A stretch of 20,398 nucleotides of DNA from a virus, in the IMG/VR virus record IMGVR_UViG_3300021964_000720, positions 1 to 20,398 of that record, one strand, 5' to 3'. Both the position numbers and the translations under genes were made by a program. Below, one piece after another: positions 470 through 17,970 of this stretch (positions within the stretch are counted from its first letter, which is position 1; each line of letters starts with the position of its first letter). The notes under the pieces were generated by a model that was given only the letters and a program-made list of their open reading frames with translations, did not search any database and was not told the DNA's origin.

Positions 470-1927
470 TTAATAATACTCATAGGTTTTATAATAATCT
501 TTAATAGGGTCTTCATAGTCATCCTTTAATGATACAAAATTACCTTGACGATAACGCATTAATGCTTGCGTCATACTATCAACTAAATCATCATGTTCAC
601 CATAAGGAAAAGCCGCGCATTCTTCAATCATTTCTTCAGCGAATTTTTTTTCTGGTGCCCATACTTGTCCCGACTCAAAAATAGGGGAGACAGAGTTTAC
701 ACGTGAAATCTTATCATTACCTTTTGAAGGAGAATAACTAACAACAGGAATTCCAACTTGTCTAAGTTCCTGAATTAATGGCTGCCCTGATGCTTTAGCT
801 TCTACAATAATTGTTTCAGGTTCCCAATACTTGTATTGTTCTAAAGCAATCTTTTTAAGTTCAGGAAACTCCCAACGATCTTTAATGCAATCAAGCAAAA
901 TAATATTATCTTGACTGAACTTTGTTTTAAATATTCCCCACGTACTAATCGCACTAAAGTCTGCGGTTTCTCTTTTACTAAAAGCGGTATCATAACTTTG
1001 AATAATATGTGTTAGCTCAGGAATGTCTTCTCGTAACCAACGTTTCCACCATTCACGTTTAATGATTGCTCCTTCTTCGGAAGTTGGTTTTTGTTGATAC
1101 TGAGCTTCCCACGACATAACAGGTAAGTTGGCTTGAATTTTCTCTAGCTCTTCTTTTTTCCAATACTCTGGCCAAATAGGTTTACCGCTTGGTAGGATTG
1201 CGGGAAATTCTACAACCTCCCATTGATCTGCTTTAGTTTCAGCCTGTTGTTTTATTAATCGACCTGTAAGATCTCGCTCTGACCACCTTGTCATAACAAC
1301 AATAATGGCTCCTCCTGGTTGTAAACGTTGTCTTGGTCCTGACATATACCAATCAAAAGCATTATCAAAACTTGTGTCAGTTATACTTTGCTCTGAATGT
1401 GGGTCATCAATGATGAGTAAGTCTGCACCACGTCCAGTAATCGCACCACCAATACCTGCTCCAAAATATTCTCCTCCATGATTGGTTTCCCAACGACCTG
1501 ATGCTTTCGAGTCGGCTCGTAGATACACATCTTTAAAAATTTTTTTGAACTGAGGGTCATTCATAAGGTTTCTCATTTTTCTACCAAACCTGTAAGATAA
1601 TTCTGCAGTGTGAGTTGCTTGAATTATTTTTGTTTTTGGTTTTTTACCCATCAACCAAGCAGGAAATAAGTAAGAAGAGAACTCAGACTTGGTGTGTCTT
1701 GGAGGCATATTAACAATTAATCGTTTTAGTTCTCCTGATGCGATGGCTTCAAACTTTTTTGCCATAACATTGTGATGATATCCGTCTATAAATTCAGGCC
1801 AAACTAACTTTACAAAATGCATAAAGCTAGATTGAGCTTTTTTACTGTCATCTTGCATGGCAATTGCCAACATTAGCCTTAATTCTTCGTCCGAATACTT
1901 TTCAAATGTAGAATTTTTTTGATCCAT
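470..1927 (-). CDS. terL: Terminase large subunit (TerL)
   Basis: The ATP-driven motor and nuclease that packages phage DNA into procapsids. The 485-residue length is normal. The N-terminal ATPase has a deviant Walker A (PPRHTKS, residues 75-81) in the usual terminase form with Arg before the loop, but with Thr where Gly or Ser is common. Walker B is LIIDDPHSE (171-179), and MTRWSERDLTGRL (212-224) matches the following motif. The C-terminal RNase H-like nuclease shows SYDTAFS (Asp313), IIVEAKASG (Glu376) and GEHDDLVDSM (Asp446/447, Asp450), the expected acidic triad. The start has an AGGAG ribosome site about 6 bases upstream. TerS lies about 950 bases upstream on the same strand, separated from TerL by a nuclease gene and a repeat-rich gap. 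The family call is firm. Confidence 0.95.
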   Translation of the reverse strand: MDQKNSTFEKYSDEELRLMLAIAMQDDSKKAQSSFMHFVKLVWPEFIDGYHHNVMAKKFEAIASGELKRLIVNMPPRHTKSEFSSYLFPAWLMGKKPKTKIIQATHTAELSYRFGRKMRNLMNDPQFKKIFKDVYLRADSKASGRWETNHGGEYFGAGIGGAITGRGADLLIIDDPHSEQSITDTSFDNAFDWYMSGPRQRLQPGGAIIVVMTRWSERDLTGRLIKQQAETKADQWEVVEFPAILPSGKPIWPEYWKKEELEKIQANLPVMSWEAQYQQKPTSEEGAIIKREWWKRWLREDIPELTHIIQSYDTAFSKRETADFSAISTWGIFKTKFSQDNIILLDCIKDRWEFPELKKIALEQYKYWEPETIIVEAKASGQPLIQELRQVGIPVVSYSPSKGNDKISRVNSVSPIFESGQVWAPEKKFAEEMIEECAAFPYGEHDDLVDSMTQALMRYRQGNFVSLKDDYEDPIKDYYKTYEYY

Positions 1928-2183: not shown

Positions 2184-2618
2184 TTATCCTGTTTTACCGC
2201 AGATTTCCTCGCTTTTCGTGGGTCGCGAACCGTGAACTTTTTTTAAAACACTAGATATAGTATCCCATCCCTGCGCGGTTGACGGTTCGCTGACACCGTT
2301 TCGTGAGAGATTTAGCGAAAGCCTTCCCTCATACAGATTTATCGTGTCTGGAGGAAGGTGCTTCGCGTGTTTTTGATAAACCAATATGTAATTACATCCT
2401 CCAGTCTCTTTCCACAGTTTAATGTTCATTGCTATTTGATGTGGGCTCAACTTGATCTTGTTACCAGTTGCAACTTTAGCCTCAATGAAGATCGTATCTA
2501 AACGTGGAGCAACTCCAACCATATCAGGGAACCCGTGAAGGGTTGTAGTCTCAATACGCAACCAGTTATAAACTGTGAGCTTTTTCTTAATTAATTTAAC
2601 AAAGTAGGACTCTTTCAT
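2184..2618 (-). CDS. VRR-NUC-like PD-(D/E)XK nuclease
   Basis: A 144-residue predicted structure-specific nuclease. Visible motifs are GFPD (residues 29-32, catalytic Asp32), FIEAK (44-48, Glu46 and Lys48) and SPHQ (58-61), the order expected for VRR-NUC and related phage Holliday-junction-type nucleases. The catalytic core sits in the first 75 residues; the C-terminal 65 residues are polar and not recognised. It lies between TerS and TerL on the same strand, a place where a branched-DNA resolving enzyme would help packaging. There is no clear ribosome site ahead of the ATG. The 3' end carries a copy of the GC-rich word family (2217-2235) and copy C of the 18-base element, so the C-terminal tail sequence may be shaped by these DNA elements rather than by protein function. 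Confidence 0.85.
   Translation of the reverse strand: MKESYFVKLIKKKLTVYNWLRIETTTLHGFPDMVGVAPRLDTIFIEAKVATGNKIKLSPHQIAMNIKLWKETGGCNYILVYQKHAKHLPPDTINLYEGRLSLNLSRNGVSEPSTAQGWDTISSVLKKVHGSRPTKSEEICGKTG
2197..2214 (+). repeat. 18-base intergenic element, copy C
   Basis: Reads CCGCAGATTTCCTCGCTT. It overlaps the last codons of the VRR-NUC gene. With the bases just left of it, it shares the 12-mer TTTTACCGCAGA (2192-2203) with copy D, about 17.6 kb away on the other strand. Confidence 0.5.
2217..2235 (-). repeat. GC-rich word family, copy in VRR-NUC gene
   Basis: On the minus strand this reads TCACGGTTCGCGACCCACG, matching TCACGGATCGCGGAGCACG at 5846-5864 over 19 positions with a few changes. Here its first T is the third base of a codon, so the reading frame differs from both other long copies. 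Confidence 0.55.
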
Positions 2619-2663
2619 GTTACAAAATTAGTATGATTATTTTTTTAAAAAGCACAGATACGC

Positions 2664-2882
2664 ATGATTAAGGTTTGGTTACTCGTTACAGCAATGTCAC
2701 TACAAGGTTGGCCAAGTGTAAAATATAGTGGAGAACTATTTATAGATGAGCGAACATGTGAAGCAAAAAGAATATATGTTGAGAACCAATCAATTGAAGG
2801 AGCCTTACAAAGAGGATACTCTGCAGTGCATGTTGAAACGTGGTGTCTTGAAACACTTATGTTTACACCTAACAGTACTTAA
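2664..2882 (+). CDS. Small protein with N-terminal hydrophobic segment, antisense to packaging genes
   Basis: A 72-residue protein that starts MIKVWLLVTAMSL, a short hydrophobic stretch like a signal peptide or anchor, followed by a polar part with two cysteines (Cys33 and Cys61) that could form a disulfide outside the cytoplasm. Short marine phage proteins beginning MIKxWLL with a PSVKY-like segment are familiar to me, which supports a real gene, though their role is unknown. It runs rightwards between two leftward genes and its last 4 bases overlap the TerS stop, so the two converge tail to tail. No good ribosome site precedes the ATG; a TATGAT box at 2632-2637 might serve as its own promoter. 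Function unknown. Confidence 0.6.
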   Translation: MIKVWLLVTAMSLQGWPSVKYSGELFIDERTCEAKRIYVENQSIEGALQRGYSAVHVETWCLETLMFTPNST

Positions 2883-3409
2883 TCCTCGTGCTCAATTAGT
2901 TTTGGTTCAGGCTTAGTCTGTTCTTGTTCAATGACATTCTCTTCATTAACAATTGGAATTCCTTTGCGTTGTAGTTCATTTAACTTTTGCAATAGTTGCT
3001 CGCGCGGTAAGTTCTCGACAGCGCTCTCCATTCTTATTGTTGGATCATACAATCCTGCAGCCTTACCTCTTAAAGCCTCAGCATTAATTGCTGCCGCATA
3101 ATGTTTTTCGTCCTCAGCTTTTTTACTGAGATCATCAAGTCTTGCAACATGCTTATCCATATTAACAGAATACTTATCTGCTAATTCTTTTTTCATATCA
3201 TAAATGGCCTCAGCCACTAATGGATATTTCTTTGGATCTTGTAACTCCCAAGCAGATCTTCTAGCTGCAGACTCAGAGTATCCTGCCTTGCGCGCAGACT
3301 CAGATGCAGATTGCAAACCCATTAATGTTTTGGTGCAGAACTCATAAACAAAACGCAATTGCATTGGTGTTAGCTTACGTGATTTTCTTCCATCGATTAT
3401 TTTAACCAT
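2879..3409 (-). CDS. terS: Terminase small subunit (TerS, Terminase_2-like)
   Basis: DNA-recognition subunit of the packaging enzyme, which binds the packaging start site and stimulates TerL. The 176-residue protein has the typical order: LTPMQLRFVYEF near residues 13-24, then AS.SARKAGYSESAARRSAWEL (35-56), a helix-turn-helix in the form seen in Terminase_2/XtmA proteins, then a helical oligomerisation region with EALRGKAAGLYD (about 111-122), which is frequent in phage TerS. The acidic Glu-rich C-terminal tail probably contacts TerL. It is the first leftward gene after the divergent control region, so it probably heads the packaging transcript. No ribosome site sits close to the ATG. Confidence 0.85.
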   Translation of the reverse strand: MVKIIDGRKSRKLTPMQLRFVYEFCTKTLMGLQSASESARKAGYSESAARRSAWELQDPKKYPLVAEAIYDMKKELADKYSVNMDKHVARLDDLSKKAEDEKHYAAAINAEALRGKAAGLYDPTIRMESAVENLPREQLLQKLNELQRKGIPIVNEENVIEQEQTKPEPKLIEHED

Positions 3410-3442
3410 AATACACTATTTCTGACCCTCTTTATAAATCAA

Positions 3443-3470
3443 CATATAAATTATTTTTCTCGTGGTGCAA
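3443..3470 (-). promoter_or_regulatory. Possible leftward promoter for TerS
   Basis: On the minus strand TTGCAC (3470-3465) is followed after 16 bases by TATATG (3448-3443), 33 bases before the TerS ATG. A second box, TATAAA, lies at 3436-3431. Matches to consensus are moderate, so this is tentative. Confidence 0.3.
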
Positions 3471-3477
3471 AGAACAA

Positions 3478-3495
3478 AATGGCTGTTTTCTGCCA
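3478..3495 (-). repeat. 18-base intergenic element, copy F
   Basis: Reads TGGCAGAAAACAGCCATT on the minus strand. Its plus-strand bases 3478-3492 are an exact 15-base inverse of 4017-4031 (copy G), so the pair brackets the nuclease gene at 3726-4013. Confidence 0.65.
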
Positions 3496-3510
3496 ATCAA
3501 TGTTTTTACA

Positions 3511-3527
3511 TGACACTACTAGTGTCA
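3511..3527. repeat. Operator-like palindrome TGACACT/AGTGTCA
   Basis: Perfect 7 bp arms around ACT. The same TGACAC word recurs at 3599-3603 and 3608-3612 (in a 9-base tandem repeat) and at 3692-3697 inside the -35 box of the rightward promoter, which suggests repeated sites for one regulator. Confidence 0.45.
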
Positions 3528-3594
3528 GGCGTACACTACTAAAAACTGACAAGTGTAAGGTAGTTTATGGCTTAAACAAACGATTAATTTGCTT

Positions 3595-3612
3595 ACCTGA
3601 CACACCTGACAC
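3595..3612 (+). repeat. Tandem repeat of ACCTGACAC (two units)
   Basis: Two exact adjacent 9-base copies in the divergent control region. Each carries the TGACAC word shared with the palindrome at 3511-3527. Confidence 0.5.
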
Positions 3613-3690
3613 TTATATTTCATTTTTAAAAATTTTTTTTTTAAAAGGGGTGGGAAAAGGTGTAAGTAGTGTACGGTGACCACGGACCAC

Positions 3691-3719
3691 GTGACACGTA
3701 TCATCAGTGATGGTATATA
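3691..3719 (+). promoter_or_regulatory. Rightward sigma70-like promoter
   Basis: GTGACA (3691-3696) and TATATA (3714-3719) are separated by 17 bases. Transcription would begin near 3726, exactly at the GTG start codon of the first rightward gene, which has no ribosome site. The -35 box is part of a GTGACAC word, so a regulator of that word would block this promoter. Confidence 0.5.
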
Positions 3720-3725
3720 AATCAA

Positions 3726-4013
3726 GTGAATAGAAAACATCAAAAAGGTTTCATATCGCACATTCAAGCAATTAAATTTCTATCGGAGCAAGGTTATTTT
3801 GTCTTTGATAATTTCTCACGCTTGGGTCCATGCGATCTTATCGGTATCAATGAGCGCGGAGAAATATTATTAGTCGATGTTAAATCAACCAGTAAAAGAA
3901 AATCAGGAACACACAAAGGATATCTCATCACACGCACACCAACAGACCTCCAGAAGAAACTCAATATACACATATTAATGGTCGATGAAGAGGGAAACTG
4001 TACCCTCAAATAA
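3726..4013 (+). CDS. Small PD-(D/E)XK endonuclease, Holliday-junction-resolvase-like
   Basis: A 95-residue single-domain nuclease. The first helix carries GFISHIQAIKFLSEQGYFVF (8-27), then GPCDLIGI (Asp37) and LLVDVKSTS (Asp51, Lys53), the spacing of a PD-(D/E)XK core like that of archaeal Hjc-type resolvases and intron-associated PD-(D/E)XK enzymes. Gln14 stands where many relatives have a Glu, so the first metal ligand may be altered. The start must be GTG: an in-frame stop TGA lies at 3708-3710 and no other start codon follows closely. No ribosome site is present, and the promoter at 3691-3719 would yield a leaderless message. It is the first gene of the rightward program and is bracketed by inverted 15-base repeats. 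It may resolve recombination or replication branches, or act as a homing-like enzyme. Confidence 0.75.
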   Translation: MNRKHQKGFISHIQAIKFLSEQGYFVFDNFSRLGPCDLIGINERGEILLVDVKSTSKRKSGTHKGYLITRTPTDLQKKLNIHILMVDEEGNCTLK

Positions 4014-4031
4014 CCCCAGAAAACAGCCATT
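4014..4031 (+). repeat. 18-base intergenic element, copy G
   Basis: Reads CCCCAGAAAACAGCCATT and starts on the base after the nuclease stop codon. The promoter at 4045-4072 follows. Confidence 0.65.
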
Positions 4032-4044
4032 ATTCTTATAATCC

Positions 4045-4072
4045 TTGAGATTTTATAATAAATCATTATAAA
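4045..4072 (+). promoter_or_regulatory. Promoter ahead of the metallopeptidase-like gene
   Basis: TTGAGA (4045-4050), a 16-base spacer and TATAAA (4067-4072) are each one base off the sigma70 consensus. TATTATATAA (4074-4083) follows, and the ribosome site AAAGGAG precedes the ATG at 4101. Confidence 0.5.
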
Positions 4073-4100
4073 TTATTATATAAACATAAAGGAGAAAGTT

Positions 4101-4598
4101 ATGAGAAAGAAAAAACTAAAAATTCAAGTATCTTTACCAAGACTTAGTTGGGTAGAGAACAACTATGAAAATGCTGTTAAGTTTTTTTTAAAAGAGCTTA
4201 ACATTTCTACAAGATTACAAAACACTTTAAATATTAAAGTTCATATTAGAAGAACTGTATTAAAGAAAAACATTTTAGGTAACTGCAGTATCTTAACTAA
4301 TGGATCATCTTCTACTAAAGAATTCAAAATAATTCTTAGAGAAGATAGATCTTACTTTCAACAATTACAAACTTTAGCGCATGAATGTGTTCACATTGAG
4401 CAAGCTTGTAAAAATCGTTTGCAGTTAAGAGTATGGTCTTCAGATAAAAGAACGCATGTTCGTTGGGAAGGTAAAGAGTGCGGTGTGTATTTGCAGGACA
4501 TTGCTTACGAAGATGCGCCTTGGGAAATCGAGGCAAGAGACAAACAAGAAAAACTAGTGAGAGACTTTTATTCTCATCAAAACAAAGGGAGAAGATAA
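4101..4598 (+). CDS. Predicted zinc metallopeptidase (HExxH)
   Basis: A 165-residue protein with TLAHECVHIEQ (91-101): His94, Glu95 and His98 form the zinc-binding and catalytic HExxH motif. A downstream segment, PWEIEA (140-145), could supply the third ligand through Glu142 or Glu144; a WExEA-type acidic site after HExxH is found in several phage and SprT-like minimal metalloproteases. The upstream part is a basic, strand-rich segment without recognisable motifs. A strong ribosome site (AAAGGAGAAAG) precedes the start, and the stop overlaps the next ATG by one base (TAATG), so it is coupled to the following gene. As an early protein it might trim a host or phage protein; the substrate cannot be read from sequence. 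Confidence 0.75.
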   Translation: MRKKKLKIQVSLPRLSWVENNYENAVKFFLKELNISTRLQNTLNIKVHIRRTVLKKNILGNCSILTNGSSSTKEFKIILREDRSYFQQLQTLAHECVHIEQACKNRLQLRVWSSDKRTHVRWEGKECGVYLQDIAYEDAPWEIEARDKQEKLVRDFYSHQNKGRR

Positions 4599-5611
4599 TG
4601 GAGAAAGTAGAATTTAAAATACCTTATACTAAGTTTGGTACAATATTTGCAGACAAAGATGGTGATAACCTTGTTATCACTGGAGTGTCAAAAAACGATA
4701 ACAAACAAAATATTTGGGCCCTTGTTCATAAGGACCACAAATTGTGGAAATACAATTACAATTTTGCCGTGTATCAGCAGGGCAAAAACTTTATTGGTTA
4801 TGGCAGAGATAAAGATAAAAATCTAGTTGAGGTTAATTTTAGTAAAAGACCAAATAGACATGTCTTAGGGGCTGAAAAACCAGAAGGCAGTTACTGGTCT
4901 ACTCATAACATTGCTACTTATGATGAGTATCATATTCTTTTAAAAGCAGCTAAAGTTATTAAAAGAACCGAGGAAGAGGCTAGGATCAAAGCAGAAAAGC
5001 TTTTACATAAAAATGCTAATGAGAACCGTGCTAAGTGTGGGGCTTGTGAGCGTCACATTGAGAGATGGGATGAAGGCAACTGGAATGGTGTTGTATATGA
5101 TCATGGCTTTGAACAAGCTGGTTATAGAGCAGGTGTTTGTATTGGTGCGAGATATCAACCTTGGGAGAAATCTCCTGAAGGTAAGATTGCTTACATCAAG
5201 CAATTGCGAGACAGAGAGGCTATCATTTTGGGATCTAAACCTAATCAAGCTAAACTTGATAAAATGATAAAAGCATCTGATGAGTATGTTGTTTGGAATA
5301 ATGAACTTAAAAAGCTTAAAGAAGACCTATGGCAGGACTTTAGACAGTCTCCTTGGTATCCTTACAAAAACTTAGATATTAACTTTAGAAGATATCTTGT
5401 GGAGCAAGGATATGAAAATTTTGAGTTGCCAAAAAGAAATCCTCAATTCTTTGGTGTTCATGTGTGGAACCAAACTACTCTTGATGAGTTGTTAAACGTT
5501 TGGCAAAGACAATTAGATATGATCCGAAATATTATTTCTAAAGAACAATCTAAAGTTGATAACTGGCAAGAGCAGTTAACAGCTAGAGAGATTATTAATT
5601 CACGTGGTTAA
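4598..5611 (+). CDS. Unknown protein with zinc-knuckle and charged helical C-terminus
   Basis: A 337-residue protein. I chose the ATG at 4598, directly coupled to the previous stop (TAATG) and preceded by GGGAGAA, over an upstream in-frame ATG at 4478. Residues 1-90 look beta-rich. Residues 120-145 are a charged helix. KCGACER (Cys147, Cys150) is followed by VVYDHGF (His169) and AGVCIGARYQPWE (Cys181), a C-C-H-C pattern that I recognise from many phage and plasmid proteins, where the DHGF/xCxGxxxxPWE part is conserved. The C-terminal 130 residues are helical and charged, possibly coiled coil. It overlaps the next gene by 8 bases. Function unknown; nucleic-acid binding through the zinc site is a reasonable guess. 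Confidence 0.8.
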   Translation: MEKVEFKIPYTKFGTIFADKDGDNLVITGVSKNDNKQNIWALVHKDHKLWKYNYNFAVYQQGKNFIGYGRDKDKNLVEVNFSKRPNRHVLGAEKPEGSYWSTHNIATYDEYHILLKAAKVIKRTEEEARIKAEKLLHKNANENRAKCGACERHIERWDEGNWNGVVYDHGFEQAGYRAGVCIGARYQPWEKSPEGKIAYIKQLRDREAIILGSKPNQAKLDKMIKASDEYVVWNNELKKLKEDLWQDFRQSPWYPYKNLDINFRRYLVEQGYENFELPKRNPQFFGVHVWNQTTLDELLNVWQRQLDMIRNIISKEQSKVDNWQEQLTAREIINSRG

Positions 5612-5810: not shown

Positions 5811-6445
5811 TAGAATTAATTAATGACGATTGCCGTAATCACGTTTCACGGATCGCGGAGCACGATAACTGTTTAGTAATTTATGATCCACCTTATGATG
5901 AGTGGGATCAAGTAATCAATGTTGAGGCTACATCTAAAATAGCTTTTACATCACCACAAAGACGACATGAAACAGAAAATATTTTAGGGAAACCAAGAAA
6001 CGAAATCGTTTGGTTTTTTAAAGATGGTAGATGGGTGAGTAAAAACTTACCGCGGATCACGCACAACTATATTTTTATTTATGGGAAGACGAGTGATGCA
6101 GCCGTGGGCCCTGATCAAGAAATAAAGACAATGAAAAAAGGATACACCTCCATTGGTAAAGATAATTTAGGTCCACGAATATTTACAACCAAACCACGTA
6201 AACATTTAAACAGCGTGTTAGAATATCCGCGTAACATGAAAAGCGGATCGTGGGGCAAGCCAATTGGTTTATTAAAAAATGTAATTGAATGGATTGATCC
6301 TGACATTGTTTTTGATTTGTATATGGGCACAGGCTCCGCAGGAAAAGCATGTTTAGAGCTGAATAAATCATACGTAGGAATTGAGAAAAATAGCGATGTA
6401 TTCGAAAAAACGAAGGCTCATTTTAGCCCAGAAAACCGCCAATAA
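5807..6445 (+). CDS. DNA methyltransferase, N4-cytosine/N6-adenine (beta-class order)
   Basis: Transfers a methyl group from S-adenosylmethionine to the amino group of adenine or cytosine in DNA. The 212-residue protein has the catalytic motif IV DPPYDEW (27-33) near the N-terminus, KPIGLLKNVIEW (151-162, the KP..L motif X) and the cofactor loop FDLYMGTGSAGKAC (169-182, motif I) near the C-terminus, followed by GIEKN (191-195). The order IV, then X and I, is that of the beta class (the class of CcrM and many phage enzymes). It is shorter than CcrM and lacks its C-terminal domain; residues 40-145 would recognise the target. No restriction partner is nearby, so host mimicry or protection from restriction is likely. 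I chose the ATG at 5807 (ATGA overlap) over 5777. The gene contains GC-rich words at 5846 and 6050, and its last codons form copy E of the 18-base element. Confidence 0.85.
   Translation: MIELINDDCRNHVSRIAEHDNCLVIYDPPYDEWDQVINVEATSKIAFTSPQRRHETENILGKPRNEIVWFFKDGRWVSKNLPRITHNYIFIYGKTSDAAVGPDQEIKTMKKGYTSIGKDNLGPRIFTTKPRKHLNSVLEYPRNMKSGSWGKPIGLLKNVIEWIDPDIVFDLYMGTGSAGKACLELNKSYVGIEKNSDVFEKTKAHFSPENRQ
5846..5864 (+). repeat. GC-rich word family, copy in methyltransferase gene
   Basis: TCACGGATCGCGGAGCACG. Its first base is codon position 1. It shares CACGGATCGCG exactly with 14938-14948 and 19147-19157, and GCGGAGCACGA (5855-5865) exactly with 17085-17095. A weaker relative, CCGCGGATCACGCAC, lies at 6050-6064 in the same gene. 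Confidence 0.6.
6426..6443 (+). repeat. 18-base intergenic element, copy E
   Basis: GCCCAGAAAACCGCCAAT, spanning the last codons of the methyltransferase gene. Bases 6429-6444 are an exact 16-base inverse of 19836-19851. Confidence 0.65.
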
Positions 6446-6460
6446 TTAGATAAATGTTTT

Positions 6461-6484
6461 AAAATATTATAAAATATTATATAA
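6461..6484 (+). promoter_or_regulatory. AT-rich promoter-like block with direct repeat
   Basis: AAAATATTAT is repeated twice in tandem (6461-6480) and runs into TATTATATAA (6475-6484). TATAAA (6468-6473) could be a -10 box. It sits 36 bases before the ATG at 6521, in the same arrangement (18-base element, AT block, ribosome site) as 4014-4100 and 19837-19925. Confidence 0.4.
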
Positions 6485-6520
6485 GTAAGGCATTAACAAA
6501 TAGAAAGAAAGAAGGCAAAA

Positions 6521-7030
6521 ATGAAAAAACTAAAACAAAAAATAAATAAAATCTTAGTTAACTTTTTAAATGATCAACACGCTAAAGATATTAAAAGCGG
6601 TAAAGAAGAAATTGTTTCTTCTTTTGAGAATGATAAATTTTCAATCGATATTATAACTCGTAAAGATTCAGTTCACCCAACTGATCCAAATAGATTTGAT
6701 ATGGAACTTGTTGGTGATTACGATGCTGTATTCTATTACAAAGATACTAAAAAGAAAGTGTCTAAAGAAGATTTTAAAGCGTGGTGCAGTGAGTTTGTTT
6801 TGGTGGATGTAAAATATGATAGTTGGTTTCATAAAAACGAACAATTTAGAATTACTGATGATGGTCAAAATGTTTTTATAATTCTTGATGGTTCAGCATC
6901 AGAACTTTATGATATTGAAACTGAGTTTTTCACTGAGTCTTATCATGATGCTTTAAACAAATGTCTTGAGGATGCAGGAATTGAGTTCGATCCTTATAGC
7001 CGTTCAACTTTACAAGTGGTGGCTCAATAA
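6521..7030 (+). CDS. Unknown 169-residue early protein
   Basis: No family recognised. The N-terminus is a basic helix (MKKLKQKINKILVNF), followed by an acidic, strand-rich body with many Asp, Phe and Tyr residues (for example YDAVFYYKD and WCSEFVLVDVKYDSWF). There is a single cysteine near residue 90 and another near 148, with no metal-site spacing. The start is preceded by AGAAGG, a modest ribosome site. The stop codon lies in the loop of a 7 bp hairpin that may serve as a weak terminator, so this gene may be expressed partly as its own unit from the AT block upstream. Confidence 0.7.
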   Translation: MKKLKQKINKILVNFLNDQHAKDIKSGKEEIVSSFENDKFSIDIITRKDSVHPTDPNRFDMELVGDYDAVFYYKDTKKKVSKEDFKAWCSEFVLVDVKYDSWFHKNEQFRITDDGQNVFIILDGSASELYDIETEFFTESYHDALNKCLEDAGIEFDPYSRSTLQVVAQ

Positions 7031-7038
7031 AGAGCCAC
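7019..7038 (+). terminator. Weak intrinsic terminator or attenuator hairpin
   Basis: GTGGCTC (7019-7025) pairs perfectly with GAGCCAC (7032-7038) around AATAAA, which contains the stop codon of the gene ending at 7030. Only four T follow (TTTTAAAAGG), so termination would be partial. Confidence 0.4.
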
Positions 7039-7058
7039 TTTTAAAAGGAGAAAGAAAT

Positions 7059-8126
7059 ATGTACGGAAACAATCATTTTGAAGACACACCACAAACTGTT
7101 TTAAAAACAGTGTCTAATCATCGTGGTAATCCTAATACTAAAATTCGTTGGGATGTTGAATTATCTTCAGGAGAAAACGCGCAAGAAAATTATTTCACGT
7201 TGCGCGTTTCAATTATTATTGATGAAAAAATTGTACCTAATCTTTTTGGGTTACATGTTCAAAATCTTTCTAAAGATTTTGATAAGGCAGCTGCTAAAGC
7301 AAAAGAGTTTGTGCAGGAAGGTGATCTTTTCACTTGGGAAAATGGCCAATCACAATCTATTAATCGTGGTTCTACTTTTCGTTTTGGTAAATACATCGGT
7401 CAATCTTTTGTTGATGTAGCAAATGATGATCCTAGCTACTTTTTATATATTCGTAGTTGGGCTAAAAAGTCTTTACTTGATAGCAAGCGCCTGCAGGTTA
7501 ATAAGCAAGCATTATTAGATGATGTAGAAGCAAATAAAATTGCGGATGATGTTTTTCAAGCAAAACAAAAACAAGACATTGAGAACAAAGAAAAAAGAGC
7601 TCTACAAGCTTTAAACTCTAATTATGTAGGTAACATTGATGAGGCTATTGAGGTAGAGGCTACTGTTCTTCATGTTAAGACGGGTGAAAGTGATTTTGGT
7701 TTTTGGACTAAAACAAAATTAATTGATGATGCAGGAAACATCTTCATTTACTGGAATGATGTTTTTGGTTCTTCAACATGCATTGATGCGGTATCGGACA
7801 GCAATTTTGGTGACGGATATAGAAATCACGGTCAAATTCTTTCTTGTTCAAAAGGTGACCGCGTTAAGTTCAAAGCGACTGTAAAAGATCACTTTGAAGA
7901 CAAGTTTTATTTTGGTGCTAAGACCACTAAAATATCGCGTGTGCGTAAGTTAGAAATTGTTTTTTTAGCTCTTGTCGATGGTTACAGAGCAAACAGCACT
8001 CTTAATGGTAATCTTAAGTATCACGCAGACAATTCTAAAAACTTTAGATTTGTTAATCAAAAAACTAAAAAGGAGATCTCATACAGAGATCTCCCTAACC
8101 CTGATAAAGGAGAAAGAAATGATTAA
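7059..8126 (+). CDS. ExoX-C-like / OB-like two-domain protein
   Basis: A 355-residue protein. I chose the ATG at 7059, which follows AAAAGGAGAAAG; an in-frame ATG at 6966 lies inside the previous gene. Residues 107-131 (FRFGKYIGQSFVDVANDDPS...) match the small domain at the C-terminus of exodeoxyribonuclease X-like proteins, usually FGKYKGK...DPSYLxWL. Residues about 197-295 (EVEATVLHVKTGESDFGFW ... GNIFIYW ... GDRVKFKATVKDHFEDKFYFGAKTT) resemble the OB-like module with the TVK-H-x(n)-QT pattern found in phage proteins. The N-terminal 100 residues are not recognised, and residues 160-185 are a charged helix. No exonuclease active site is present, so the ExoX-C part is probably a DNA-binding or adaptor module. 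Role in recombination or replication is inferred. Confidence 0.75.
   Translation: MYGNNHFEDTPQTVLKTVSNHRGNPNTKIRWDVELSSGENAQENYFTLRVSIIIDEKIVPNLFGLHVQNLSKDFDKAAAKAKEFVQEGDLFTWENGQSQSINRGSTFRFGKYIGQSFVDVANDDPSYFLYIRSWAKKSLLDSKRLQVNKQALLDDVEANKIADDVFQAKQKQDIENKEKRALQALNSNYVGNIDEAIEVEATVLHVKTGESDFGFWTKTKLIDDAGNIFIYWNDVFGSSTCIDAVSDSNFGDGYRNHGQILSCSKGDRVKFKATVKDHFEDKFYFGAKTTKISRVRKLEIVFLALVDGYRANSTLNGNLKYHADNSKNFRFVNQKTKKEISYRDLPNPDKGERND
8072..8094 (+). repeat. Perfect 9 bp stem-loop before a microprotein gene
   Basis: GGAGATCTC (8072-8080) and GAGATCTCC (8086-8094) form a perfect stem around ATACA, 24 bases ahead of the ATG at 8119 and inside the C-terminal codons of the upstream gene. It has no T run, so control of translation or RNA processing is more likely than termination. 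Confidence 0.45.
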
Positions 8127-8232
8127 ATATATTATCAACGATCTTAAATTAGCGAGCAAGGAAGATTGGATCTACCTTGCTCTTTCATTACCTGTAAGTC
8201 TGGTTGCACTTGCAGATTGGTTTATATTTTAA
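8119..8232 (+). CDS. Membrane microprotein (37 residues)
   Basis: Preceded by an ideal ribosome site AAAGGAGAAAG four bases before the ATG; it overlaps the end of the previous gene by 8 bases. The first half is polar (MIKYIINDLKLASKEDW), and IYLALSLPVSLVALADWFIF is one hydrophobic segment ending the protein, so it is a C-terminally anchored membrane microprotein. The next gene starts 12 bases later with the same ribosome site. Short tail-anchored proteins can act as inhibitors of host membrane enzymes, but no target can be named. Confidence 0.6.
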   Translation: MIKYIINDLKLASKEDWIYLALSLPVSLVALADWFIF

Positions 8233-8244
8233 CAGGAGAAAGAA

Positions 8245-8496
8245 ATGACTAAAAAATCGATTATAAATATAAAAGTTTCAGGAGTTAAAAGATTAAATAA
8301 CTCTTCTAATGGAAACCCGAAATACGAGTTTCATTTTCATAAAGGAGGCATTGCAACAACGCCTTCGGATGCAGGATGGGTGTATGCTTTTAGCACTGAT
8401 ACTTTTTGGGGTAAGTGGGTAGATATTACTTATCACATGACTAAAGCAGGAAAAGCAATTCTGGACTCAATAACTTTAAATAAGCAGGAGCAATAA
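8245..8496 (+). CDS. Unknown 83-residue beta-rich protein
   Basis: Preceded by CAGGAGAAAG. The sequence is strand-rich and looks like a small beta-barrel: a leading basic strand (KKSIINIKVSGVKRL), NSSNGNPKYEFHF, then AGWVYAFSTDTFWGKWVDITYHM. The SSNGNPxYEF part resembles short phage proteins that I cannot name. There is no metal site. Its stop overlaps the next start (TAATG). Given the neighbours (zinc-knuckle and ParB-fold proteins) it may belong to an early accessory cluster. Confidence 0.65.
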   Translation: MTKKSIINIKVSGVKRLNNSSNGNPKYEFHFHKGGIATTPSDAGWVYAFSTDTFWGKWVDITYHMTKAGKAILDSITLNKQEQ

Positions 8497-8741
8497 TGAT
8501 TAAAGGTAATCCGATAGTCAGTAAATGTGTTAATTGCGACGGTCAGTTCCGTCGCAATACTTTTGGTGTAGGATTGAATACCATAGGGAAGGATTTAGAG
8601 TACGCAACATCAGCTAAATCTTTTTATTTTTGTCAGTCAAAATGCGAACAAGAGTTTGCAGAGGCGTGTGCCGAAGCTAACGTTAGGCGTATCGGCGGAA
8701 CGTTAGTCAGGTTTAATAAAGGAGATAGGAGGGCTTCATGA
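8496..8741 (+). CDS. Cys4 zinc-ribbon microprotein
   Basis: An 81-residue protein with CVNC (Cys11, Cys14) and FYFCQSKCEQEF (Cys46, Cys50), a four-cysteine zinc ribbon resembling the TRASH/FCS-type pattern YFCSxxCxxxF, followed by a basic tail (VRRIGGTLVRFNKGDRR). The start is coupled to the upstream stop (TAATG) with GCAGGAG before it, and the stop is coupled to the ParB-fold gene (ATGA). A perfect 10 bp hairpin at 8533-8558 lies in its early codons. Probably binds nucleic acid or a protein partner; not assignable further. Confidence 0.7.
   Translation: MIKGNPIVSKCVNCDGQFRRNTFGVGLNTIGKDLEYATSAKSFYFCQSKCEQEFAEACAEANVRRIGGTLVRFNKGDRRAS
8533..8558 (+). repeat. Perfect 10 bp stem-loop inside the zinc-ribbon gene
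   Basis: ATTGCGACGG (8533-8542) and CCGTCGCAAT (8549-8558) pair fully around TCAGTT, 37 bases into the gene. The stem is GC-rich for this genome and encodes the CDGQFRRN segment. Confidence 0.5.
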
Positions 8742-9505
8742 CTAAAATATTAAAATCTTTTGATTATAAAAAATTTAAATTTATCAAAGGTAATAGGGCC
8801 ATAAACGACCGCCATGTTAACGGTTTAGTTAAAAGCATGGAAAAGAATGGGCTTATTATAAATCCTTCGTGTGTTAACGAAAAGTTAGAAATCATTGAGG
8901 GTCAACATCGTTTAATGGCTTGTGAGATATTAAATCTTCCTTACTATTATTATGTAGTTCCTGGTGCTACTATTGATGATGTTACTATTTTAAATCAAAA
9001 TAGAAAAAACTGGGGCTTTACGGAATGGATGAACCGTTATTCTGAATACAATAATATGGAATATCAAATCTATAAATCATTGTATGAGAAATGGGGCTTT
9101 GATCATTGGAGCACTATATTTCTTTTGTGTCGTACAAAAGGATATCGTAGCCGTGCAGGATTAAAAGATAAGTTTTATGATGGCACACTAAAAATTGAAA
9201 CGTTAGAGCAAGGTAAAAAATGGGCTCAACGTATCATGGACGTCGAACCATATTATAAAAATTATAAAAGACGTGCCTTCATTCAAGCAATGATCCGCGT
9301 GTTTCATGATCGTAATTACAATCATAAAATTTTTATTAATAAATTAAATATGGTTAGAGATAGATTATACGACTGTTCAACAGTCGGTTTATATCTTCAA
9401 CGTATTGATGATATTATGAACTATCAAACACCTAAAAATAAAAGAGTAAATTTTGCGATGCAATGGGGCGATCCAGAATCTATCTTTTCAGATAAAGCAG
9501 CTTAG
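8738..9505 (+). CDS. ParB/sulfiredoxin-fold protein
   Basis: A 255-residue protein with an N-terminal ParB-like domain: NRAINDRHVNGLVKSMEKNG (19-38) corresponds to box I, and LEIIEGQHRLMAC (50-62), with Glu54-Gly55-Gln56-His57-Arg58, to box II, where chromosomal ParB has the nucleotide-binding GxRR or G-E-R-R. Many phage members carry EGQHR. There is no clear helix-turn-helix; the C-terminal 160 residues are rich in aromatic and basic residues (WGFTEWMNRY, KNYKRRAFIQAMIRVFHDR). Coupled upstream by ATGA. Phage proteins of this fold have been proposed as DNA-binding regulators or nucleases; which applies here is open. It is unlikely to be a partition protein because no ParA is present. Confidence 0.8.
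   Translation: MTKILKSFDYKKFKFIKGNRAINDRHVNGLVKSMEKNGLIINPSCVNEKLEIIEGQHRLMACEILNLPYYYYVVPGATIDDVTILNQNRKNWGFTEWMNRYSEYNNMEYQIYKSLYEKWGFDHWSTIFLLCRTKGYRSRAGLKDKFYDGTLKIETLEQGKKWAQRIMDVEPYYKNYKRRAFIQAMIRVFHDRNYNHKIFINKLNMVRDRLYDCSTVGLYLQRIDDIMNYQTPKNKRVNFAMQWGDPESIFSDKAA
9370..9386. repeat. Palindrome in ParB-fold gene
   Basis: CGACTGTTCAACAGTCG is a perfect palindrome of 8 bp arms around one C. It lies inside the coding region and may simply be a coding coincidence or an operator. Confidence 0.3.
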
Positions 9506-13969: not shown

Positions 13970-15532
13970 ATGAAAGTAGAAAAATTTAAAAATATATTTG
14001 ATGGGTTAGATAGAGCTCACGGTTTTTATGAGTATACCCAAACAAAACAAAACGGTAAGCGTGATGGACGCATGCGTACAGTGCATGAAGAACCTACTTT
14101 ACAAATGTTTCAAGATCATCTTGAAGGAAAAGATCGTGCTTTAGGTATTGTTCCCATTCGAGACGATGCAACTTGTACGTGGGGCTGTATTGATATTGAC
14201 GAGTACCCTTTGGATCATAAAAAAATATTATCACAAATACGAAAATACAAACTACCATTAGTGATGTGTGCCTCCAAATCTTTTGGCGCTCATCTTTTTT
14301 TATTTTCCAAAAATCCACAACCTGCTTCTCTCTTTGATGAAAAGTTAAAAGAAATACGCGCTTATCTTGGCTATGCAAAAGCGGAGGTATTTCCTAAACA
14401 AATTAAACTCTCTGATGAGCAAGACACTGGATCGTGGCTGAACTTACCTTATCACGGCGACACACGGTACGCGTTTCTTGATAATGGTGAAGGTGCTACA
14501 TTAGAAGAATTCTTTGAGTTATATGACAAATATGTCTGTGATGATATTGGTAAAATATTAATACAGGTAGAAGATAATGACATGGCTGATGGTCCTCCAT
14601 GTTTAGAAATTTTAACGGATCAAGGTTATCCAGAAGGGACAAGAAATAATGGATTATTTAGTGTGGGAATTTTTTATCGTAAGTCTAATCCTGATGACTG
14701 GAAAAATTTACTAGAAAAATATAATCGTGAATATATGGATCCACCTTTGAATACACATGAGGTAGCGATTATCATGAAATCAGTAGGCGCTGATAAAGCC
14801 GATGGTAGTATGAAATACATGTATAAATGTACGGATCAACCTATCGCTAGTGTTTGTCAAAGAGCAAAATGTAAATTAAGAAAATTTGGTGTAGGAACAT
14901 CAGGCCAAGATCATCCTGTATATGCAAACTTACGTGTCACGGATCGCGAACCACGTATTTGGTATCTTGATATAGACTCTCATCCAGTGGAAACACAAGT
15001 ACAAGATGAAATAGAATACCATCATCGTTTACGTAAATTAGTTAAAAGAAAATTATTACGGTACATACCTATGATGAAACAAGCTGACTGGGAAGAGATA
15101 CAGTCTGGATTATTTGAAACTATTACCACAATAAATATGCCTGAAGATGTATCGAAGGTTGGTGAATTTAAAGATTATTTATTTGAGTTTTGTACCGCAA
15201 GAGGCGAGTCTTTTGATATTGATGAATTAGATATGGAAAAGCCTTACACCAATGTTGAAGAGAATGCGACATACTTTCGTTTACGAGATCTATCAAAGTG
15301 GTTAGAGAATACAAAAAACTTTAAAGAGAATAGATCTTGGTTAGTACAACGAATAAAAGATTTAGAGGGCGAAGATGTAAGAGTATATCCTAAAGGAATA
15401 CAAACACGTGCATGGAAAATACCTGCTTACACACAACCTAAAAAGATGGAAAAGATGCCTGATTTAAAAACAGATGAAAAAACAGATAAAGATGTTTTAG
15501 GCGGAACTGAAGATGAGGCTATGACATTTTAA
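13970..15532 (+). CDS. Archaeo-eukaryotic-type primase (TOTE/AEP-like)
   Basis: A 520-residue primase that would make primers for DNA synthesis. Residues 1-190 carry the AEP active site: CIDIDEYP with Asp75 and Asp77 (hhhDhD), SKSFGAHLF with His108 (SxH), and EVFPKQIKL...SWLNLPYHGDTR (139-166), the FPKQ and NLP segment typical of the AEP found in TOTE systems and phage relatives. A middle part, RNNGLFSVGIFYRK ... PPLNTHEVAIIMKSV (226-272), is PriCT-like. Cys287, Cys296 and Cys301 (CTDQPIASVCQRAKC) may bind zinc or an iron-sulfur cluster. The C-terminal 200 residues are helical and end in a charged tail; no helicase domain is fused. No ribosome site precedes the ATG because the leader is the terminator's T-rich tail. 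The stop overlaps the helicase start (TAATG). Confidence 0.8.
   Translation: MKVEKFKNIFDGLDRAHGFYEYTQTKQNGKRDGRMRTVHEEPTLQMFQDHLEGKDRALGIVPIRDDATCTWGCIDIDEYPLDHKKILSQIRKYKLPLVMCASKSFGAHLFLFSKNPQPASLFDEKLKEIRAYLGYAKAEVFPKQIKLSDEQDTGSWLNLPYHGDTRYAFLDNGEGATLEEFFELYDKYVCDDIGKILIQVEDNDMADGPPCLEILTDQGYPEGTRNNGLFSVGIFYRKSNPDDWKNLLEKYNREYMDPPLNTHEVAIIMKSVGADKADGSMKYMYKCTDQPIASVCQRAKCKLRKFGVGTSGQDHPVYANLRVTDREPRIWYLDIDSHPVETQVQDEIEYHHRLRKLVKRKLLRYIPMMKQADWEEIQSGLFETITTINMPEDVSKVGEFKDYLFEFCTARGESFDIDELDMEKPYTNVEENATYFRLRDLSKWLENTKNFKENRSWLVQRIKDLEGEDVRVYPKGIQTRAWKIPAYTQPKKMEKMPDLKTDEKTDKDVLGGTEDEAMTF
14937..14955 (+). repeat. GC-rich word family, copy in primase gene
   Basis: TCACGGATCGCGAACCACG, differing from 5846-5864 at only two of 19 positions, but read here with its first base at codon position 2 (peptide VTDREPR rather than SRIAEH). 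Confidence 0.6.
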
Positions 15533-17052
15533 TGATTAATATAATTGTAGGTCCTCCTGGTACAGGCAAAACAACAGAGCTGTTAAATATATGTCAGCAT
15601 AAAAAAGAACAGGGTGTTCCTTGGGAAAGAATTGGTTTCTTTTCTTTTTCTAAGAAAGCAGCATATGAAGCTAAAGACAGAGCAAGACATAAGTTTCAAG
15701 CTAGCAGAGATGATTTAACACATTTTAGGACATTACATAGTTTTGCTTTTAGACATTTAGCTGTCAAGGAAGATAACTTAATGAAACAAAAACATTGGAA
15801 AGAATTATCTTCTAAAGTTGGTTTTAATTTAGTTTTTAATGATAATGATGATTCTGTTTATACGAATTCTAATCATCAATTTATAAATCTTATTAACAAA
15901 GCGCGCTTAAAAGATATTAGTTTAGCAGAAGAGGTTAGGCTTTATCCTGATCCGATTAATATGGTTAAGCTAGATTATTTAAACAGAGTTATTAATGAAT
16001 ATAAAAAAATTAATGAGCTTTATGATTATACGGACATGATTGTTGATTACACAAATGACACAGTTTCGACACAGTTTGATGTGCTCTTTATTGATGAAGC
16101 GCAGGACATGCCTCGCATTCAATATAACATGGTAGATAAATTAATTAGTAACAGTAAAGAGGTTTACATTGCAGGTGATGATGATCAAGCTATCTTTCGT
16201 TGGTCAGGCGCCGATGTAGATAAATTTATATCTCTACAAGGTACAGTAAAAGTTTTAGATAAATCGTATCGTTGTCCGCGAAGAGTGTTTCGATTAGCTA
16301 ATAATATTATAACTAAAATACGAAACAGGCGCCCTAAAGTTTGGCAACCAAAAGAAGATGAAGGTAAAATATATCGTATACCACATTTACGCCATATTGA
16401 TTTATCTTCAGGTAATTGGTTGATCCTTGGCAGAACAAAAAAAATTAGAAATGAAATGATAGAAGAAATACTTTTAGAACAAGGTTATTGGTATGGCCGA
16501 GGTGAGCATAGACCAGTGTCTACGACTGTTTTGGGGGCTATAGATGTATGGAAAAAATTAAAGTCTGGTAACACGGTTACCTTAACAGAGGTTAAAACTT
16601 TATATAATAAAATAAAAACTAAAGTTGGAATTAAGCATGGTCATAAAACAATGAAAGTAGAGAATGATAAACAATTATTTTCATTACAGCAGCTAAAAGA
16701 TCATCATGGTTTACTTGTCGATGGAGAGTGGTGGGACATACTTAGTTCGTTAACACCTTTTGAAATTACTTATTTACGGCGGCTTGAGAAAATAGGTGAA
16801 GACATAACAACAGAACCACGAATTCGTGTTTCTACAATTCATCAAGCTAAAGGCGGAGAATGTGAAAATGTCATTGTGTTATTAGATTTAGGAAAGATTG
16901 TTTATAGATCTTATTTAAAAAATCCTGATGATGAGCACCGTGTTTTTTATGTTGCTGTCACCAGAGCAAAAAACAATTTGTATATTGTTGAGGCTCAAAA
17001 ACAACAAGGTTACCGAATGTACGGTGATGAAAGGATGCATGATGATTTATAA
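15532..17052 (+). CDS. UvrD/Rep-like SF1 DNA helicase
   Basis: A 506-residue 3'-5' type DNA helicase. Motifs in order: GPPGTGKTT (Walker A, 7-15), FFSFSKKAA and THFRTLHSFAFRHL (motifs Ia/Ib), FIDEAQDMP (Walker B DEAQD, 188-192), GDDDQAIFRWSGA (motif III, from 215), KSYRCPRRVFRLANNI (motif IV region), VSTIHQAKGGECENVIVL (motif V, about 432-450) and FYVAVTRAKNNLYIV (motif VI, about 472-486). It is shorter than UvrD or PcrA (about 720) because the 1B and 2B inserts are small, which is usual for phage members. Coupled to primase upstream by TAATG and overlapping the next gene by 14 bases. In the absence of a DnaB-type helicase here it is the obvious fork helicase candidate. Confidence 0.92.
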   Translation: MINIIVGPPGTGKTTELLNICQHKKEQGVPWERIGFFSFSKKAAYEAKDRARHKFQASRDDLTHFRTLHSFAFRHLAVKEDNLMKQKHWKELSSKVGFNLVFNDNDDSVYTNSNHQFINLINKARLKDISLAEEVRLYPDPINMVKLDYLNRVINEYKKINELYDYTDMIVDYTNDTVSTQFDVLFIDEAQDMPRIQYNMVDKLISNSKEVYIAGDDDQAIFRWSGADVDKFISLQGTVKVLDKSYRCPRRVFRLANNIITKIRNRRPKVWQPKEDEGKIYRIPHLRHIDLSSGNWLILGRTKKIRNEMIEEILLEQGYWYGRGEHRPVSTTVLGAIDVWKKLKSGNTVTLTEVKTLYNKIKTKVGIKHGHKTMKVENDKQLFSLQQLKDHHGLLVDGEWWDILSSLTPFEITYLRRLEKIGEDITTEPRIRVSTIHQAKGGECENVIVLLDLGKIVYRSYLKNPDDEHRVFYVAVTRAKNNLYIVEAQKQQGYRMYGDERMHDDL

Positions 17053-17317
17053 AAAAATACTTAACAAAGCCATTGAATTGATTGGCGGAGCACGAAACAC
17101 GGATTACGGAGATCGGGTTACCAATCATCAAAACATCGCTAACTTATGGTCTGCTTTTTTAAATAAAAAAATATCCGCTCATGATGTAGCAATTTGTATG
17201 GCTTTAGTTAAAGTAGCGCGTCTCATGCATAGTCGTAAATCTGATAGTTATGTTGATCTAGCAGCGTACGGCGCAATTGCAGGTGAGATAGCAGAACGTG
17301 AAGAGGATAAAAAATAA
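17039..17317 (+). CDS. DUF6378-type protein
   Basis: A 92-residue protein. LNKAIELIGGARNTDYGDRV (with YGD), NHQNIANLWSAFL, KKISAHDVAICMALVKVARL and SYVDLAAYGAIAGE match the DUF6378 pattern (ER..dYG ... N...IA.LW ... DVA..M...K.aR ... DS..D.AGY) common in phages. The helical Asp/Glu pattern is MazG-like at a distance, so a nucleotide-related role has been considered, but no activity is established. Start at 17039 or 17042 (consecutive ATGs) with AAAGG upstream; an earlier ATG at 16928 lies inside the helicase gene. Coupled to the next gene by TAATG. Its early codons contain a member of the GC-rich word family (17085-17116). Confidence 0.75.
   Translation: MMIYKKILNKAIELIGGARNTDYGDRVTNHQNIANLWSAFLNKKISAHDVAICMALVKVARLMHSRKSDSYVDLAAYGAIAGEIAEREEDKK
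17085..17116 (+). repeat. GC-rich word family, copies in DUF6378 gene
   Basis: GCGGAGCACGA (17085-17095) is identical to 5855-5865. CACGGATTACGGA (17099-17111) differs at two positions from CACGGATCGCGGA. Confidence 0.45.
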
Positions 17318-17970
17318 TGCCAAATTTTTTTAAAAATGGAAGTACCCCAGAGGAGAGAAGAAAAGTATTACCAGGATATCCAAAAGATTTAGTTTTTAAA
17401 AACTATGAAGAATATAAACAATATTTTGTTGGTGACAGAATTATTTGTTTGTTATGTGGCAAACATTATAGATCACTTGGAAACCATCTTAGAGTATCTC
17501 ATGAAACCACGGTTGAAGATTACAAAAAAAAGTACGGTATATTATGGGGTAAATCATTAATATGTAATGAATATTATGAAATACGATCAAAAGAAGCAAA
17601 AAAGACGATTGCTAATGGTAAACTTATACCTCAAACTTTAGAGGGTAGAAGAAAACTAGCAGAGCTAGCTCGTAAATATAAAAGAAAACCAAGAGATTTT
17701 AAACTTCATACAGTCTCCTCTCAAGATAATATTAAAAAATATAATGAATTACATGGCTTTGATGGAGAAAAAACTAGAATTAAAAAAGAAAATCAAACTA
17801 AATGGGGGACTGAAGAATTTAAAAAAGTAATGGCAAACAGACCTCAATGTAATCTTTTTGCAGGAGGATATAAAAACTATTGGAAAGGCAAAAAACAATC
17901 AGAGGATCATAAGAGAAAAAAATCAGAAGCCATGAAAGCTTATCATAAAAAATTAAAGGAGAAAAAATAA
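17317..17970 (+). CDS. ROS/MucR-like zinc-finger protein with NUMOD3-like tail
   Basis: A 217-residue DNA-binding protein. IICLLCGKHYRSLGNHLRVSH (42-62) gives Cys44, Cys47, His57 and His62, followed by ETTVEDYKKKYGI: the C2H2 finger and trailing DYRxxYG motif of the ROS/MucR family of alphaproteobacterial regulators. After a basic linker, the C-terminus (YWKGKKQSEDHKRKKSEAMK, about 187-206) resembles the NUMOD3 DNA-contact motif of homing endonucleases (GKKHSExTKxKxSEAxKG). No GIY-YIG, HNH or other nuclease core is present between them. It could be a regulator that acquired a homing-type DNA-reading module, or the remnant of a homing enzyme. Starts in TAATG overlap and ends in an overlap with the polymerase ATG. 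Confidence 0.75.
   Translation: MPNFFKNGSTPEERRKVLPGYPKDLVFKNYEEYKQYFVGDRIICLLCGKHYRSLGNHLRVSHETTVEDYKKKYGILWGKSLICNEYYEIRSKEAKKTIANGKLIPQTLEGRRKLAELARKYKRKPRDFKLHTVSSQDNIKKYNELHGFDGEKTRIKKENQTKWGTEEFKKVMANRPQCNLFAGGYKNYWKGKKQSEDHKRKKSEAMKAYHKKLKEKK

Follow-up and report, generated by a model that had tools for sequence, protein, structure and literature searches.

What reads the short repeated words that lie between the terminase genes and the rightward genes of this virus, and to what end? The original prediction was of a genetic switch, in which a single regulator bound to TGACAC words controls the genes on both sides. The window, as we call the whole stretch of DNA analysed, is a virus record of 20,398 bases in which we observe no end repeats. 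The terminase genes run leftward, left of position 3409, and open reading frames run rightward, right of 3726, with the following features in and around the intergenic region.

470–1927, minus strand: terL, the large terminase subunit (phrog_38, 1.2e-109; Terminase_6C)
2184–2618, minus strand: gene for a VRR/Hjc-like PD-(D/E)xK nuclease, after terS (motif and profile matches)
2879–3409, minus strand: terS, the small terminase subunit, of Terminase_2 type with an N-terminal HTH (phrog_51, 4.9e-12)
3511–3527: palindrome TGACACTACTAGTGTCA, with arms of 8 about one base
3511–3529: half-sites 1 and 2, consisting of the palindrome TGACACTACTAGTGTCA plus GG, proximal to TerS
3530–3537, plus strand: half-site 3, CGTACACT
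3552–3560, minus strand: half-site 4, CCTTACACT, facing half-site 3 in inverted orientation; part of the same array and missed in the original prediction
3595–3603 and 3604–3612: tandem copies of ACCTGACAC
3596–3613, plus strand: half-sites 5 and 6, the 9-base tandem CCTGACACA CCTGACACT, half-site 5 ending in ACACA, not ACACT
3622–3646: A/T-only tract of 25 bases, a possible bend or unwinding element
3668–3676, minus strand: half-site 7, CCGTACACT, the distal site
3691–3697: GTGACAC, outside the conserved layout
3726–4013, plus strand: small ORF with a PD-(D/E)xK-like motif, on the other side of the array (invariant D37, D51 and K53)

The four elements on which the switch had been built, namely the palindrome, the tandem, GTGACAC and the inverted pair GTACACTACT (3531–3540) and AGTAGTGTAC (3665–3674), are all found in the sequence at exactly those positions, and the inverted pair extends to 18 nt with 83% complementarity (3530–3547/3658–3675). 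We describe them as an array of seven half-sites with the core ACAC, six of them with ACACT, plus the A/T tract, spanning 3511–3676. The repetition of TGACAC claimed for this region is denser than chance: the word occurs 5 times in 3410–3725 against a shuffle mean of 0.24, a count reached in 0 of 1000 dinucleotide shuffles, and the same holds for CCTGACAC (3 against 0.004; 0/1000) and ACACTACT (3 against 0.02; 0/1000). Weaker excesses are seen for T.ACACT (2/1000), the count of the commonest 6-mer (26/1000) and the longest palindrome (3/200), and 5 of the window's 16 TGACAC words are located in 3450–3725. The spelling of the window's array is mixed (CCTG, CATG, CCTT, CGT) and less uniform than in most relatives. 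The A/T tract is exceeded in length by two other A/T-only runs in the window, and an A/T-rich tract recurs at the same place in relatives. GTGACAC at 3691, although present, is retained in only 13 of 31 distinct intergenic regions, all from the window's own clade, and has no place in the conserved layout; it therefore probably does not belong to the array.

Other repeats are found in this neighborhood. A perfect 15-base inverted repeat, AATGGCTGTTTTCTG at 3478–3492 and CAGAAAACAGCCATT at 4017–4031, flanks the array and the small ORF; its core, AAAACAGCCA, is also present at four places in L020. The direct repeat CCACGGACCACG lies at 3680–3691, right of the array, and CACGRNNCACG-like words are seen close to the array of some relatives, as well as upstream of terS in the phage HTVC023P.

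The array could belong with the genes on either side, and relatives separate the two. Protein searches with TerS and with the ORF at 3726 as queries gave 66 and 45 loci, respectively. Where both genes are present, we obtain 31 distinct intergenic regions of 314–333 bases (identical regions merged before counting), in which the array is kept; conservation of the words in relatives, which the original prediction had named as its own test, is thus borne out. The array remains beside terS where the right-hand gene differs, as in L024, whose right-hand gene encodes a 171-residue protein without a Pfam match. Conversely, loci with only the 3726-type ORF (L099–L112) lack an array over the 700 bases ahead of it, a result that rules out that ORF, itself without a Pfam match or a significant match to solved structures, as the partner of the array. 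Because the terS loci keep the array under varied right-hand genes and the loci with only the 3726-type ORF lack it, we conclude that the array belongs with terS. One locus with terS, L022, has no array in the 600 bases examined. Location at or in terS, a trait of pac- and cosB-type sites, is therefore seen here, with arrays farther upstream in L350 (about 0.4 kb from terS) and L140, where ~1 kb, with two other frames of the TerS strand, separates the upstream array from TerS. In L025 and L031 the array is likewise kept, although farther from terS, at about 320–550 bases upstream.

Among 28 array loci chosen with TerS present, the TerS and nuclease families are common to nearly all and no other gene family is, in a comparison that covered up to 6 kb on each side and, for some loci, under 1 kb of upstream DNA. 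The nuclease, whose presence played no part in choosing the loci, is on the TerS strand in all 28 (single-linkage BLAST), with its center 0.6–1.2 kb from the TerS start in 25. By profile, it is found in the locus DNA of 129 of 140 TerS loci, and it is also near TerS in the array-less records HTVC027P, 023Pt_psg01 and DSL-LC04.

These results bear directly on the switch, in which a regulator bound to the array would control the operon of terS together with the divergent operon on the right. The intergenic position upstream of terS and a 17-base palindrome of operator size are what such a reading would lead one to expect, and the part of it that invokes one regulator for the TGACAC words is consistent with what we observe, that they are copies of one conserved, like-spelled site; judging from these spellings, one DNA-binding protein probably reads the words of the array. 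Control in both directions is not supported: the array is tied to terS, and the divergent right-hand gene is freely replaced in relatives. In L140, the frame before the array is also on the TerS strand, and the array is therefore not between divergent genes at all. Promoter-like matches in 2600–4700 number 10 against a mean of 8.1, as expected by chance. The linked regulator gene of a lambda-type switch has no counterpart, as no family beyond TerS and the nuclease is common to nearly all array loci within the DNA compared, up to 6 kb on each side and shorter upstream in some.

A regulator with further targets would be expected to have further groups of sites, and the original prediction proposed a search for more TGACAC palindromes across the genome. 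In 11 records searched with CCTNACACT, 54 matches are found, 38 of them in the terS array, against one match in all for the control. Groups of at least three occur solely at the terS array, in 9 of the 11 records; L011's record has two CCTNACACT there and L056's has none, its half-sites being without CCT. The closest to a group outside the array is a pair in L024's record. This confinement speaks against a regulon. Similarly, each of three long contigs scanned in full has one clearly non-coding group of repeated 7-mers, at terS. The same scan misses the mixed array of the window, where its sole match is an inverted repeat at 8051–8300; a 9-base perfect inverted repeat, GGAGATCTC-ATACA-GAGATCTCC, lies at 8072–8094, near the end of the ORF at 6966–8126. 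With one array group per record and the evidence above, we regard the switch as improbable. Its two proposed binders, a putative ribbon-helix-helix protein and a ROS/MucR-like protein, are encoded at 9844 and 17317, 6 and 13 kb from the array. The description of the latter as ROS/MucR-like is correct, as a ROS_MUCR domain is present (17317–17970, 4.6e-15). As a binder, TerS, which has an HTH, is a better candidate than either.

Relatives were also sought without reference to the motif. A search of bacterial and archaeal genome contigs with the TerS alignment yielded 8 relatives with 30–43% identity, of which six (L345, L346, L347, L348, L349 and L350) carry an array upstream of TerS, each spelled in its own way. 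Five of these six arrays are significant (0 to 3 of 200 shuffles), and that of L346 is not (24 of 200). The other two, L351 (uncultured Pelagibacteraceae, isolate AG-919-D18) and L352, have no array upstream of TerS. We tested 35 TerS clusters in total, of which 21 were found by protein; the other 14 are L067, in which TerS is cut at the contig start, and 13 from motif scans. Among the 21, a repeat within 450 bases upstream of TerS is significant in 13 (at most 10 of 200 shuffles), compared with 6 of 57 control upstream regions (at most 5 of 100 shuffles), a difference with a Fisher p of 1.2e-5. The 8 clusters that miss the threshold comprise five without a visible array (L113, L228, L230, L351 and L352), two with a weak array (L047 and L346), and L025, whose array lies beyond the tested 450 bases.

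The cultured phage HTVC023P (L229) has TAGGAA eight times upstream of TerS (0/200 shuffles). Its repeat, CTAGGAAA, at about 8700–8900 of L229, is a different word in the same place upstream of terS. Without mismatches, TNACACTNNNAGTGTNA is absent from the whole records of HTVC027P, HTVC023P, DSL-LC04 and 023Pt_psg01; with one mismatch, it matches one place in HTVC023P, and HTVC027P has one control match.

If the array is read by a single protein, its half-sites should resemble one another more than those of other arrays. The four bases preceding ACACT are indeed alike within an array and different between arrays, with spellings that include CCTT, CCTC, TATT, CTTT, TGTT, CGTT, CGTA, GGTT and TGTC, among others. 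Over 27 arrays and 164 half-sites, again chosen with TerS present, mean agreement is 2.63 of 4 positions compared with 1.76 in shuffled sets (0/5000). This set leaves out L067, L113, L228, L230, L351 and L352 (no array), L229 (other motif) and L348 (fewer than three ACACT), and L025, L140 and L350 were read farther upstream than the others. As 13 of the 27 arrays come from motif scans that favor TTACACT, the test was redone on the 14 protein-found arrays (86 half-sites), where agreement is 2.52 of 4 compared with 1.67 (0/5000); with one half-site per tandem run, it is 2.48 compared with 1.68 (0/5000). Shared spelling would follow from a single protein reading every copy, with site and protein changing together, as in the repeated sites for one protein of pac- and cosB-type systems, though within-array likeness could partly come from recent duplication.

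The layout is conserved over a shorter range. From terS outward, half-sites in the window's wider clade are spaced by 13, 7–8, 24, 42–43, 8–9 and 64 bases, and the spacings of 42 and 64 would be near 4 and 6 helical turns. The window's layout is not kept in divergent arrays, although elements of it recur: among arrays with at least four half-sites, a same-strand pair at 8–9 bases is found in 21 of 26 (10 of 13 protein-found) and a 13-base inverted pair in 11 of 26 (8 of 13 protein-found).

Motif scans approach the linkage from the opposite side. Scanning viral contigs with TTACACTNNNAGTGTAA gave 117 places among the matches listed. With at least seven ACACT words in ~500 bases, 12 of 13 such places, several of the 12 being close kin, have a TerS match in the locus, compared with 5 of the remaining 104, again among the matches listed. 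In L168, L181 and L190, the array lies beside a TerS of 33–34% identity. Two palindromes, in L158 and L177, are inside reading frames and were taken as chance. A scan for direct repeats, counted like the palindrome scan over the first 120 stretches among the matches listed, gave 24 loci in which at least seven ACACT words lie close to the repeat; TerS is present in 12 of these and absent from the other 12. Among these listed TerS-less loci, 5 were judged to be repeats in reading frames and 7 are intergenic, one of which (L239) is on a contig that stops 146 bases on.

The intergenic TerS-less arrays raise the main rival to a packaging site, which is a replication origin: the half-sites would be iterons for an initiator, the A/T tract an unwinding element, and terS merely adjacent. 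Iterons with an A/T tract form the textbook layout of an origin, and the array has both. Among the matches listed, 6 of the 7 intergenic TerS-less TTACACT arrays adjoin primase, helicase or AAA-type genes, as does the array of L167 from the palindrome scan; neighbors were called by Pfam in L317 and from the neighbor's nearly identical starting letters in L335. These TTACACT-type arrays lie in L245 (about 3245–3370), L317 (3538), L335 (7339–7685), L314 (5282), L305 (7737), L249 (1173–1310) and L167 (about 6320–6600). They are possibly replication origins in unrelated phages and share the layout of the window's array, but they were chosen by motif, and their likeness is thus no sign of kinship. 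The three long contigs offer no second non-coding array as an alternative origin, and the array of the window sits at the minimum of its cumulative GC skew; yet the skew follows gene direction, turning negative over the reversed block at 10–12 kb, which makes the minimum uninformative. SaPI-type iteron origins lie beside a D5-like helicase. Their short repeats flank an A/T-rich tract, as here, whereas our array has terS as its constant neighbor and lies near no known initiator gene. It is terS that travels with the array, and no known initiator gene does so: no known initiator family is common to the 28 loci within the DNA compared, and the replication genes of the window, an AEP-TOTE type primase with PriCT_1, a UvrD-type helicase and a family A DNA polymerase (13970–19832, the primase at 13970), begin more than 10 kb to the right of the array. 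On balance, we consider an origin unlikely, though it has to be taken seriously.

Two further readings can be dealt with briefly. Repeated sites would also suit a partition or centromere-like site, and the window encodes a ParB-like protein at 8738–9502 (phrog_12305, 7.3e-20); this gene is 5 kb away and is not among the families common to the array loci within the DNA compared, which leaves a partition site very improbable. Slightly less probable still is a structured RNA in place of a protein site: the inverted pairs could form hairpins, but there is no Rfam match at gathering thresholds, and direct and inverted repeats share their spelling, which base pairing does not require. To all readings other than a packaging site, an origin or an operator, including any that we have not considered, we jointly assign little weight.

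The protein encoded by terS is compatible with DNA recognition. The Pfam family Terminase_2 matches TerS below the cutoff in the window and above it in L058 and L349. An AlphaFold model has a mean pLDDT of 72.9, rising to ~90 over residues 11–70, and places a recognition helix at residues 46–56. The best three Foldseek matches to this model are small terminases of SPP1-like phages, with a target TM-score of 0.83 to the SF6 DNA-binding domain (4zc3/2cmp) and E-values that are all at least 0.001; the HTH of TerS is thus predicted to have the SF6/SPP1-type fold. In the clade with TCACACT arrays, the recognition helix carries a Lys at position 47, which is found in 0 of the other 25 sequences compared. 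As a sign that TerS reads the array, Lys47 is suggestive at the level of sequence. It represents a single event, L346 has TGTCACACT without Lys47, and the nuclease has more clade-specific columns (21) than TerS (7, of which 4 are outside the variable tail), so that covariation fails to single out TerS. In the nuclease, E3, E23, P31-D32, E46-x-K48 and Q61 are invariant in 22 sequences; its profile matches are weak, to the solved nuclease 4qbo (6.4e-5), Hjc (4tkd, 0.0036) and RelE toxins (0.02), and the Pfam family Hjc is slightly under the cutoff.

The occurrence of the array ahead of terS in many distant relatives, with a spelling that changes as a set, points to an array by which the DNA of this marine phage is tagged for packaging by the phage itself, and away from an on/off switch. 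We consider it fairly probable that the array is a TerS recognition array, a candidate packaging-initiation site of the pac or cosB kind. In favor of a packaging site are the tracking of terS while the right-hand gene changes, the own-spelling arrays of relatives found blind to the motif with their repeat excess over controls, and the presence of TerS at most ACACT-rich places among the matches listed. The shared spelling, the predicted SF6/SPP1-type fold, the Lys47 clade and the TAGGAA repeat of HTVC023P add to these, as does the terS array being the sole clearly non-coding group in the scan of three long contigs. Weighing against it are the 8 of 21 clusters below the threshold, the less uniform array of the window, the look-alike arrays elsewhere beside replication genes, and the domain of SF6 TerS, for which part of one report describes binding with little sequence specificity (PMC4737164). 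Contig ends, which here are ends of assembly fragments, show no pile-up at the array: of 66 loci, 6 have their end in the first 320 bases upstream of terS, and 8 in the next 640.

We infer TerS to be the binder and the site to start packaging, and each bending and cutting step that follows is of the same kind. At positions 3511–3676, the small terminase of the phage itself would assemble into a nucleoprotein complex, in which seven half-sites, mostly N4-ACACT, with set orientations and spacings, some near whole helical turns, would be read by the HTH domains of oligomeric TerS. The A/T tract may permit a bend in the DNA that separates the proximal set from the distal site. With TerS bound, the array would label the DNA as that of the phage and recruit TerL for a cut close by. 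The VRR/Hjc-like nuclease may remove branches from the DNA or aid the cut, and TerS on the array may also damp its own operon. More tentatively, and with fairly low confidence, we suggest a three-part cassette of half-site array, SF6-type TerS and VRR/Hjc-like nuclease, in which a TerS ring would read the array sequence-specifically through its many HTHs at once, the specificities of array and TerS would often have changed together across phages, and the nuclease would join in the start of packaging.

Known packaging sites offer partial parallels. In lambda cosB, gpNu1 reads R sites that are separated by a bend site. The array resembles it in having several copies of one candidate TerS site and a bendable stretch beside terS; the half-site, number and spacing differ, and for the array no cut site or cohesive end has been identified. 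In HK97, an HNH protein lies beside cos; here, too, a small nuclease gene is near terS, but of the VRR/Hjc-like kind. The pac site of SPP1 and SF6 (pacL, pacC and pacR), which is bound by G1P, has repeat sets at the start of terS, as the array does, and a TerS whose N-terminal domain is of the fold predicted for that of the window; unlike this pac site, the array uses one half-site in both orientations with lineage-specific spelling. According to parts of two reports, SPP1/SF6 TerS oligomers are thought to bind two sites, looping the DNA (PMC4737164, PMC7617512), and the repeats of SF6 pac are reported in one of these parts to matter little for binding (PMC4737164). In part of another report, the HK97 small terminase is described as recognizing a specific DNA site at cos (PMC11331095), and this recognition is through N- and C-terminal segments as DNA exits the ring tunnel, not through an outer array of HTHs.

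Within the portion of PMC11331095 that addresses it, the recognition of viral DNA by small terminases is called a subject of major debate. The corresponding section of a review (PMC9611059) describes the binding of pac-phage TerS to DNA in vitro as weak and mostly sequence-independent, and sequence-specific binding is reported there for the TerS of cos phages. Such an array is unnamed in the titles and abstract starts of the literature searched, which mostly left subscription journals outside. The array seems to be a variant of the pac/cosB theme, and what seems new, as far as these searches show, is the broad range of TerS proteins paired with their sites. If TerS reads the array, natural TerS genes with their own spellings would provide a ready test of sequence-specific recognition by ring-forming TerS, and the arrays would help locate packaging start sites in the genomes of uncultured phages.
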